DNA of 64,000 bases from Massilia sp. CF038 (GTDB lineage Bacteria > Pseudomonadota > Gammaproteobacteria > Burkholderiales > Burkholderiaceae_D): the NCBI RefSeq assembly GCF_900129765.1, contig NZ_FQWU01000002.1:1178001-1242000 (forward strand), in the 5' to 3' direction. Position 1 is the first letter of the stretch. Each line of letters begins with the position of its first letter. Below the pieces are notes generated by a model. That model was not told where the DNA came from. It worked only from the letters and a program-made list of their open reading frames with translations, and did not search any database. This document shows, piece by piece, positions 43,462 through 46,373 of this stretch. The translations under genes were made by a program, and so were the position numbers.

Positions 43462-43923
43462 TCAGGCGCTGCGGCGCCTGATCCACGCATCGAGGGACAA
43501 TTTTCCCGGTCCAAACGCCACCAGCACCAGCAGCAGGATGCCCCAGTAGCGGTGATCATTGATCGCGGCCGGGCAGTCAAAGGTGAACAGCTGCGGGTAC
43601 GAAATCACCGCCATCAGATTGACCACAAACAGGCCCAGCGCAGCCGGTCGCGACAGCAAGCCCACAAACAGAAACACCGGCAACGCCAACTCGCCCATGG
43701 CGCCCATGACAGCGGCCACTTCGGGCGACAGCAAGGGCGTCTTGTACTCGTCGGTAAACAGGGCGACTGTGCTGTCCCAGTCGGCAATCTTGATCAGGCC
43801 GGAATTGAAGAACACCCAGCCTACGTAAAGCCGGATCGCCAGGTTCAGTAGCGAGCCGCCCCAGGCGGTGATCAGTTCATCGTAGCGATAGGTCGTGCGG
43901 ATTGCGCCCAGAATGGCATTCAT
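43462..43923 (-). CDS. bufD: DoxX family membrane protein of a bufferin-type operon
   Basis: A 153-residue protein with four hydrophobic helices. Seen: [21 protein letters not shown], the DoxX N-terminal helix, [32 protein letters not shown], and [23 protein letters not shown]. In bufferin operons a DoxX protein (BufD) accompanies the RiPP enzymes. The ATG overlaps the stop of the upstream gene (ATGA), which indicates translational coupling. The exact role of DoxX in the pathway is unknown. Confidence 0.85.
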
Positions 43924-45641
43924 GATGACTCCGTTGTGAATTGTTGTTGTGCTTGTTTGGGGTAATCGTTTGGTGCAGTCAGCAGGCCGAGAGCGACCCA
44001 GTCGCGCAGCCAGGCGCTGACATCGATCTGCTCGTCAATCTCGAATGCCGCGTCCAGCGCCGCGCCCATCGGATCGCCCTGCCCAAGGCGGACCAGGGCC
44101 GTAAAGTGCGCCGCGGTCAGGGGATGCACGATGCTCTTCCAGTGCGGCCGTGCCAATACGGCATGGCTGGCCAGCGCCAGCTCCTGCGGGAAGCCGGCGT
44201 CGCTGCCTTGATGTGCCTGCCACAGCGCGACCACGTTCCAGGGCGAGGCAAACAGCGTCGCTGCGGGATGCAGGGCAAAGTGCGCAGCCTCGAACTGTTC
44301 GGGTGACAAGCCGGCCAGGCTTTGCGCGTCCAGTGCCGCTGCCTCAGGCGCGTAATGGGTGCGGTGCAGGGCCCACTCCAGGCGTGCCATGTCGGGCAGA
44401 TAGGGCAGCTCGGCGACGTGTTCGAAACCAGTCAGAAAGGCGGCGAAATGGGCGCCAAAGCGGTTCAGATCGGGGCTGTCCGACGGATGGGCCTTGCCGA
44501 AAGCGCGCGCCAGGGCGCTGAAAAACTCGGAACCCACCAGTTGGACGATCACAGGGAAGGCTGCGCCCAGAACTTTGCCCCAGGTGCCGCTCAGGTTGCC
44601 GCGGTAAAGCGCGATGCGCTCGGCCCCGGCAGGACCGCTGTCGCGCAGCTGGGCCAGCAGGGCCGCTTCATTGGTGGCGTTGAATAGCGCATCGGAAAAC
44701 TGCGCCTGCAGCGTGGCCAGCACATTGCTGCTGGCGCCAGCGCATTCCAGTGACGGCGGCGCGGATACCAGGGTGATGGGCGGCAGCGCCTCGCGGGCAA
44801 TTGCCGCGGCCTTGTGCGCCTCGCCAAGCAAAACCGCAAGCGCGGGGATGTCGGTATCCCATTCGATCAGCGTCGGACGCGGGCCGCAGCGTGCCAGCGC
44901 GGCACGATACAAATCCCATACCTGCTCGTCCACCGGGGCGCCATGGTGGTCGATGACCGCGGTCGGGGTCACCAGGTGTCCGGCCAGATGCATCTCGCCC
45001 ACGCTGGCAGGATCGAGCGCGGCCAGAGCCGCCAGCGCGTCTTCGCCGTGATTGCATTGATTGACGTACAGGTTGTTCACGTCGAGCAGCAGGCCACAGC
45101 CCGTGCGCTTGGCCAGCGCCGCCAGAAATTGCGCCTCGCTCATCGCATCGGCGCGAAAACGCACATAGGTGGAGACGTTTTCCAGCAGGATGGTGCGACC
45201 GAAGGCTTCCTGCACCTGCTCCACCCGTTCGCACAGCAGCGCCAGCGCTTCTTCGGTCAGCGCCAGCGGCAGCAGATCATTGAGTTGCCGGTCGTGTACC
45301 GCGCCCCAGCACAGGTGCTCGGACACCAGCATGGGTTCGACCTGGCGCACCAGGCTTGCCACACGTTGCAGATGGGATTGTGAAAAGCCGCGCGCCGAGC
45401 CCAGGCCAAGGCCCACGCCGTGCAGGCTGATGGCATAGTCGCGCCGCAGCTGTTGCAGCACGTGCCAGTCCCAGCCGGACTGGTCCAGAAAATTTTCAGT
45501 ATGAACTTCGAGCCAGTCGACCTGGGGACGCTGGTCGAGAAACTGGCGGTAGTGCGGTGCCCGCAAGCCCACCCCGATCAAGGGAAGTGAGCCGGGGCGG
45601 ACGGCGACCGAGGCAGACACGATGCCGTCCGCGCAGCGCAA
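43920..45641 (-). CDS. bufB: Fused RiPP-modifying enzyme: MNIO (DUF692, BufB) + DUF2063 partner (BufC)
   Basis: About 573 residues in one frame. Residues about 18-290 are an MNIO (DUF692) TIM barrel with likely iron ligands in SLHGVG (His74), SEHLCW (Glu108, His109), LLENVS (Glu154), LLLDVNN (Asp187), GEMHLAGH (His218), DHHGAP and IEWDTD (Glu260). Residues about 300-573 are a DUF2063 module ([35 protein letters not shown]). MNIOs such as MbnB and BufB turn precursor Cys into oxazolone- or thiooxazole-type groups, with DUF2063-type proteins presenting the peptide; the two are usually separate. The start is uncertain: TTG at 45641, right after the precursor stop, or GTG at 45620. Confidence 0.88.
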
Positions 45642-45911
45642 TTACTTGGCTGCAGTCAGCTTGCCGCCGGCCTTTTCGCACGTGCCTTTGGCCACGTATT
45701 TCCATTCGTTTGCATCTTTGTCGACCTTGCCCTGGCCAGCGCAGGAATGCGAACCAGTTGCGGTAGCGCAATCATTCTGACCGGCTTTGGCAATGCCGTA
45801 GCACTTTTCTTTTTCTGCCTTGGCAGGTGCGTCGGCCGCGTAAGCAACGCCGGCGGTGACAACACACAGACCAGCCAGAGCGGCGGCGGTAATGGCTTGA
45901 CGTTTGTTCAT
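45642..45911 (-). CDS. bufA1: Bufferin-type precursor peptide (DUF2282)
   Basis: An 89-residue protein from the ATG at 45911 (GGAG 10 bases upstream). The signal peptide (residues 1-26, ...AGVAYA-AD) suggests Sec-dependent export. The mature part has four Cys at 37, 48, 57 and 78, in [22 protein letters not shown] and KGTCEKAGG, the DUF2282 pattern. In Caulobacter, BufA1-type peptides are modified by BufB/BufC and buffer copper in the periplasm; the same is inferred here. It leads an operon with the MNIO-DUF2063 fusion and DoxX. Confidence 0.9.
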
Positions 45912-46009: not shown

Positions 46010-46038
46010 AACTGATTTACGTTTGCTTGCAAAAGGGC

Positions 46039-46085
46039 AAAAAAAAAAAGCCCGGGCCTCCCTGGGGCGGAGAGGTGGCCGGGCT
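46039..46085 (-). terminator. Terminator of the YjfB gene
   Basis: On the minus strand an AGCCCGGCC / GGCCCGGGCT stem with a long loop is followed by eleven T. It separates yjfB from the bufferin operon. Confidence 0.85.
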
Positions 46086-46172: not shown

Positions 46173-46373
46173 TTAAGCGGTGGTATTGATCGTGTTGCCG
46201 AGGTTGGCAGGCAGATTTTGCACGGCTGGCGGCGACTGCACTGCGTTGATCAGCTGCGCGGCGGTCGATGCCTGGATCTGTTGCGCCTTTTTCAGCACAG
46301 CAACGCCAACTTCCTGCTTGTTCCCCGTTTCCGCGATGCTGGTAGCGAGTTTTGCGATTGAACTGACATCCAT
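46173..46373 (-). CDS. YjfB family putative motility protein
   Basis: A 66-residue protein: MDVSSIAKLATSIAETGNKQEVGVAVLKKAQQIQASTAAQLI and a Pro/Asn-rich tail. This matches the YjfB family, often found with flagellar genes. Probably soluble and helical; function unknown. GAGG lies 7 bases before the ATG. It starts 20 bases after mobB on the same strand. Confidence 0.85.
   Translation of the reverse strand: MDVSSIAKLATSIAETGNKQEVGVAVLKKAQQIQASTAAQLINAVQSPPAVQNLPANLGNTINTTA

Follow-up and report, generated by a model that had tools for sequence, protein, structure and literature searches.

The MbnBC and TglHI complexes consist of two chains, with a partner of another type (MbnC) or another chemistry (TglH). 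The bufferin-1 operon of Caulobacter, BufA1-B1-C1-D1, encodes a DUF2282 precursor with a signal peptide and four Cys residues, an MNIO, a DUF2063 partner and DoxX, and its MNIO and partner are separate proteins. Cys residues of copper-binding peptides are converted to 5-thiooxazoles (PMC12668002, PMC12452194), and bufferins chelate copper (PMC12452194); in bufferin 1, the central Cys residues are modified and the outer two are disulphide-bonded (PMC12452194). For the related Hvf pair, HvfC is described as needed for the mixed-valent diiron state, with partner binding yielding the active site, and in studied relatives the Sec signal peptide serves as the leader (PMC13419390). Weak binding between the MNIO and its partner prompted the construction of an HvfBC fusion for study of the iron cofactor; this engineered protein (2026) surpassed the co-expressed pair in activity, with similar iron loading (PMC13419390).

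We analysed a 64,000-nucleotide stretch of the Massilia sp. CF038 genome, referred to as the window. At positions 43462-45911, three tightly packed genes on the minus strand encode a precursor, a fused MNIO-DUF2063 frame and DoxX. The operon thus has the same components as that of Caulobacter, although here the MNIO and its partner form one chain and no NrsF anti-sigma gene was found in the host genome (no PF06532 match). PME-type 1 partners are separate proteins, mostly of 250-260 aa, whereas here the partner is joined to the MNIO in a chain of 566 aa. The features are as follows.

43462..43923, minus strand: DoxX-family membrane protein (BufD/HvfX-like), PF07681 64.3 bits
43920..45620, minus strand: bufBC, fused MNIO-DUF2063-RRE-like protein, 566 aa, based on Pfam, NCBIfam, relatives and an AlphaFold2 model
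45641-43920, minus strand: bufBC open frame counted from the TTG, 573 codons, no internal stop
43989..44327, minus strand: C-terminal winged-helix-like region, taken as RRE, mixed strands and helices, model residues 432-544
44433..44711, minus strand: DUF2063 (PF09836) helical domain, residues 311-403, 71.7 bits (cut-off 27.2)
44727..44792, minus strand: linker between the two domains, about 20 aa, modelled with low confidence by AlphaFold2
44796..45578, minus strand: MNIO (PF05114) barrel, residues 22-282, 341.8 bits (cut-off 25)
45642..45911, minus strand: bufA, DUF2282 bufferin-1-type precursor, 89 aa, PF10048 86.2 bits
45984..46010, minus strand: candidate promoter motif of ECF-sigma type, TGTAAGG-N16-CGAC, about 72 nt upstream of the bufA ATG

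An earlier sequence-only reading had given this span correctly and had described a DUF2282 precursor, a single frame running from MNIO into DUF2063 and a DoxX gene coupled to it, and it had taken separate proteins to be the normal arrangement. Each of these points is borne out: the frame is free of stops, and the DoxX start overlaps the bufBC stop as ATGA. The precursor has Cys residues 37, 48, 57 and 78 in its mature part, as had been predicted, and a further Cys16 inside a signal peptide that looks Sec-like by eye. Such a precursor, with its signal peptide and conserved Cys, directly adjoins the MNIO gene, the arrangement by which bufferin-1 operons are recognised. The claim of a bufferin-type operon also agrees with the MNIO half scoring 362.8 bits on the NCBIfam equivalog MNIO_BufB (NF050167; cut-off 310). 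The precursor matches the NCBIfam BufA2 model below its cut-off, and DoxX scores 59.8 bits on the NCBIfam HvfX family, under the cut-off of 80.

The fused gene probably begins at the GTG at 45620 (566 aa) rather than at the TTG at 45641. Taking as start the first in-frame ATG past the precursor stop, or otherwise GTG or TTG, we obtained 64 ATG, 10 GTG and 4 TTG starts in 78 relatives, 63 of them 10-60 nt from the precursor stop, 14 at 9 nt or less and one at 79 nt; two other loci (L034 and L060) yielded no start past the precursor stop by this rule. In the top match (L001), a GTG is preceded by GGCATC, the same context as that of the GTG at 45620. The start positions and codons of the relatives, together with the L001 context, make this GTG the likelier start and disfavour the TTG. 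The strong coupling that had been read into a start immediately after the precursor stop is accordingly weakened, since the likelier start lies 21 nt further on.

The AlphaFold2 model of the fused chain had a pLDDT of 87.8 and a pTM of 0.87, with a short uncertain linker and a helical DUF2063 half, and a fold search with the model returned MNIOs as all of its top seven matches. A profile built from 13 DUF2063 halves matched only 3dee in the PDB, weakly (E 0.015) and collinearly across both 3dee domains; from this weak sequence match and the winged-helix-like region of the model, we take the C-terminal end of bufBC to be RRE-like. Alignment of the barrel with 3bww showed iron-site-type residues common to both (picked by eye): the His of LHG, SEH/SDH and HxxGH, the Glu of LEN/VEN, the Asp/Asn of LDVNN, DxHG and a Glu in the last barrel strand. 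These metal-site-type residues are invariant or nearly so across 25 rows and are presumably metal ligands.

To assess conservation, we collected 154 relatives of the locus and opened the best 80, a sample that favours fused loci because the query is itself fused. Both halves lie in one open reading frame in 80 out of 80 of these loci, and a DUF2282 precursor was found in front of the fused gene in them. Invariant residues are kept in both halves, far more of them in the barrel (25 representatives, namely 24 loci and the window). A single frame in all 80 loci, with invariant residues in both halves, argues that the fusion is neither chance nor a sequencing slip; the fusion is real and conserved. 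The four mature Cys residues aligned in 80 out of 80 precursors, namely those of 79 of the best 80 loci and of the window; L070, to which no start could be assigned, was excluded. Since modification of bufferin 1 falls on the central Cys residues, it would here probably affect Cys48 and Cys57. Cys16 aligned in 79 out of 80 precursors of the main clade and is absent from the precursors of L095, L103 and L108; given the possible leader role of the signal peptide, this residue could matter. The contig of L070 is labelled Bifidobacterium breve (a MAG), and its fused gene was placed among Oxalobacteraceae in our trees; the contig is probably mislabelled or contaminated.

How often and in which clade the two domains are fused had been raised by the sequence-only reading. 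Searches with a full-length profile showed it to be no isolated oddity: many genomes of the host's family carry the fusion, and it recurs within the order. In the family, 147 of the 245 genomes searched had matches and at least 81 were fused; the corresponding numbers were 399 searched, 197 matching and at least 14 fused for the order, and 398 searched, 146 matching and at least 2 fused for a phylum sample, both of the latter coming from the host's own family. These counts are lower bounds, the best three to five candidates having been scored per genome. The 81 family genomes comprise 78 with one match spanning both halves and three (G056, G802 and G890) recognised by an ORF check. Ten of the 78 matches hold one stop codon, and the three of them that we opened (L160-L162) proved to be fused, their stop being terminal; two others among the 78 (G859 and G871; loci L109 and L165) hit a contig end and are fused as far as readable. 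Outside the order, none of the 16 loci opened (four full-length matches and twelve long open frames) was fused, and all were split.

Full-length matches and long frames also produced false candidates. The ORF check resolved seven (G487, G712, G671, G405, G073, G148 and G837, that is, loci L090-L093, L096, L102 and L107) into neighbouring genes with an intervening stop, and the full-length match G991:C21 (L163) proved to be split genes on opening. Among 25 loci opened for their long open frames (L135-L159), only L155 (G058) was fused. Two further comparison loci (L166 and L167) were split. In L164 (G982, a genome 48% complete), the fused gene copy is interrupted, which may reflect decay or a sequencing error.

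A maximum-likelihood tree built from 84 MNIO domains needed eight changes between the fused and split states, and its starred branches force all eight; an earlier tree with 68 rows also needed eight changes, seven of them forced. These counts carry no direction, and the bootstrap had not fully converged. Twenty-four representatives of the 80 loci entered the first MNIO tree; for the 84-row tree, we removed ten fused rows that were near-copies as well as L084, a far outlier, and L160-L165 and L168 were left out. Holding all fused rows as one clade cost 411 log-likelihood units (AU p 2e-90), and this arrangement was rejected. The fused lineages are the main clade, which includes the window; L101; L098/L100/L106; L095, whose sister L157 is split; L103, whose sister L125 is split; and L097. 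Two further fused loci (L108 and L155) were placed without support either way. A quick tree of the partner halves needed eight changes, of which starred branches force three, and again recovered the L103-L125 pair. By eye, the precursors of L095, L097, L103, L108 and L155 are DUF2282-like, those of L098, L100 and L106 are bufferin-2-like and rich in CKG, and that of L101 is less typical. We read these results as about six or more origins of the fusion, in both bufferin-1- and bufferin-2-like operons, and we take the direction to be from split to fused because the split state is commoner outside. The MNIO trees place the split loci L110 and L111 within or beside the main fused clade, as reversals or as survivors of an ancestral split state; fusion therefore need not be irreversible.

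Beyond what these genomes establish (domains, operon, continuity, conservation and recurrence, and, as described below, a scarce internal start signal and a shared promoter motif), we draw on studied relatives for the iron chemistry, the thiooxazoles, the role of the leader, the copper function and any advantage of fusion. By this analogy, bufBC likely encodes a single-chain bufferin-1-type maturase, with BufB and a DUF2063-RRE BufC in one chain, that would install thiooxazoles and give a copper-chelating product. The partner half would bind the Sec signal peptide of the precursor, which would double as the leader, and would help the iron site of the barrel to reach the active mixed-valent diiron state. 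The barrel would oxidise core Cys residues of the precursor to 5-thiooxazoles, the exported peptide would chelate periplasmic copper and DoxX might have an accessory redox or membrane role, while fusion would hold enzyme and activator at 1:1. The single-chain tailoring enzyme envisaged in the sequence-only reading is plausible in light of the higher activity of engineered HvfBC than of the co-expressed pair (PMC13419390).

The recurrence of the fusion supports a 1:1 complex as the working unit. We tentatively propose, as a reading whose chances we see as nearly balanced, that MNIO and PME1 proteins became single-chained repeatedly (about six times or more), in systems of bufferin-1 and bufferin-2 type, because an attached partner keeps the iron site active. 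It is also quite conceivable, if somewhat doubtful, that fusion is neutral and brings no functional advantage, being tolerated because the two proteins work in a 1:1 complex in any case. Neighbouring genes that overlap are easily fused, the split form prevails among the bufferin-type systems listed from outside the main clade, and the position of split L110 and L111 would fit such tolerance; six or so origins or more, wide retention in one family and the gain in activity on joining the related HvfBC pair (PMC13419390) argue for an advantage instead.

The host genome contains four MNIO genes: the fused one, C2, C3 and a divergent one. C3 has a bufferin-2-like precursor (by eye) and a split partner. 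C2 combines a DUF2282 precursor with one that looks bufferin-2-like by eye; its partner is split as well, and genes that look like a two-component system lie nearby. This second bufferin operon (L130, 2127-6746), beside the two-component system, also contains what appear by eye to be a DoxX-like gene and a pair of hydrolase-like genes, and one MNIO apparently serves both precursors. The divergent MNIO (L132, 6214-7905) matches the window's barrel at 34% and had no DUF2063 match; an 87-aa open reading frame overlaps its start and one of 178 aa directly follows it. This locus may belong to the 'adjamnio' type, which has been reported from Massilia (PMC12452194).

Upstream of bufA, we found a shared sequence, TGTAAGG-N16-CGAC(TA), that in our reading has the shape of an ECF-sigma-type promoter. 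The pattern TGTAANN-N15-17-CGAC occurred in 32 of 33 upstream regions of DoxX-positive loci, counting the window among them, and in 2 of 47 DoxX-negative ones, compared with 2 out of 4000 in a resampled control; one of these 34 matches (L025, TGTAAAA) looks spurious. The exact TGTAAGG-N16-CGAC had two sites genome-wide, ahead of the window operon and of the C3 bufferin operon. A reversed-pattern control had three genome sites, so the motif count is at control level although its placement is not, and a one-mismatch search of the 64-kb window gave two sites against 0.71 expected, not a rarity there. As a mark of fusion, the motif was ruled out by a second set of 18 fused and 55 split loci, in which it preceded 5 and 20, respectively; it thus belongs to bufferin operons more generally and, standing before split and other fused loci too, probably predates the fusion. 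Because 45 of the 47 DoxX-negative upstream regions lack it, the fused operons are not all regulated alike, and the association with DoxX perhaps marks two regulatory types of one fused system. Many of the DoxX-negative loci come from Duganella and Janthinobacterium. Sigma-factor genes have been reported in Buf1 clusters, though not in all of them, in a passage naming only Buf1 (PMC12452194), whereas the motif here also precedes the bufferin-2-like operon C3. Further upstream, on the minus strand, a T-run follows what looks by eye like a hairpin (46030-46080); this is likely the terminator of a small gene at 46173-46373.

The promoter shape bears on whether the operon responds to gold, oxidative or other metal stress instead of copper, which we consider unlikely. 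An ECF-type promoter suggests envelope stress, and the related gig operon of Cupriavidus, termed a bufferin cluster (PMC12452194), was named for its induction by gold (PMC10304878); however, gig is induced by copper too (PMC10304878), and copper is what bufferins chelate (PMC12452194).

Junctions of split pairs, scored by the nearest start codon, showed how the two genes lie when separate. The second gene starts inside the first in 21 of 29 pairs, a start codon lies no more than 16 nt from the MNIO stop in 27, and six junctions are ATGA, those of both split pairs of the host genome (L081 and L082) among them. Fusion probably arose, repeatedly and independently, when neighbouring genes, in many cases overlapping, lost the stop and start that had separated them. 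Linkers in the 79 fused proteins measured span 6-69 aa (20 aa in the window), with 41% Ala+Pro. A start with an SD-like site ahead of the second half was present in 6 of 79 fused genes versus 29 of 51 split genes, by a loose SD rule and over search stretches of unequal length. This scarcity makes it unlikely that the partner is made alone in most fused genes. We therefore regard as quite improbable a mixture of the fused protein with a partner half made separately from an internal start: besides the six SD-like starts, in-frame ATG codons lie close to the second half in 24 of the 79 fused genes and the window carries a GTG in frame ahead of its own second half, but by the loose rule neither the window nor 72 other fused genes have an SD-like start there. 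We can all but dismiss the view that there are really two genes, with an error of sequencing or assembly, or drifting read-through, behind the open frame, for although a one-base slip could join overlapping genes, the join is common to all of the best 80 loci and about 81 family genomes in independent assemblies, the linker is in frame and separate start signals are mostly lost.

The chemistry of the system favoured here, a single-chain maturase, is probably ordinary for bufferins; the interesting part is the recurrent single-chain form. If the proposal holds, the natural fusions would be ready-made single-chain thiooxazole synthases, counterparts of engineered HvfBC. Together with their split sisters in close relatives and the split paralogues in the same genome, the natural fusions offer natural pairs for testing the role of the partner and the benefit under copper stress. 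In the literature searched, we found no study of natural MNIO-DUF2063 fusions. The 2009 structure paper on NGO1945 lists one DUF692-DUF2063 protein among 216 DUF2063 proteins (PMC2954202); it has the same domain order, with DUF692 at the N terminus, and in the text consulted it receives a one-sentence mention without function, distribution or origin. MovX, as described in PMC13419390, also combines an MNIO with a C-terminal RRE in one chain, but there only the RRE is fused. An engineered counterpart is HvfBC, derived from Haemophilus oxazolin enzymes, in which an MNIO is likewise followed by a PME partner in one chain (PMC13419390); HvfBC is man-made, free of a linker and paired with an oxazolin precursor, whereas the chain described here is natural, has a linker of about 20 aa and is paired with a DUF2282 precursor.
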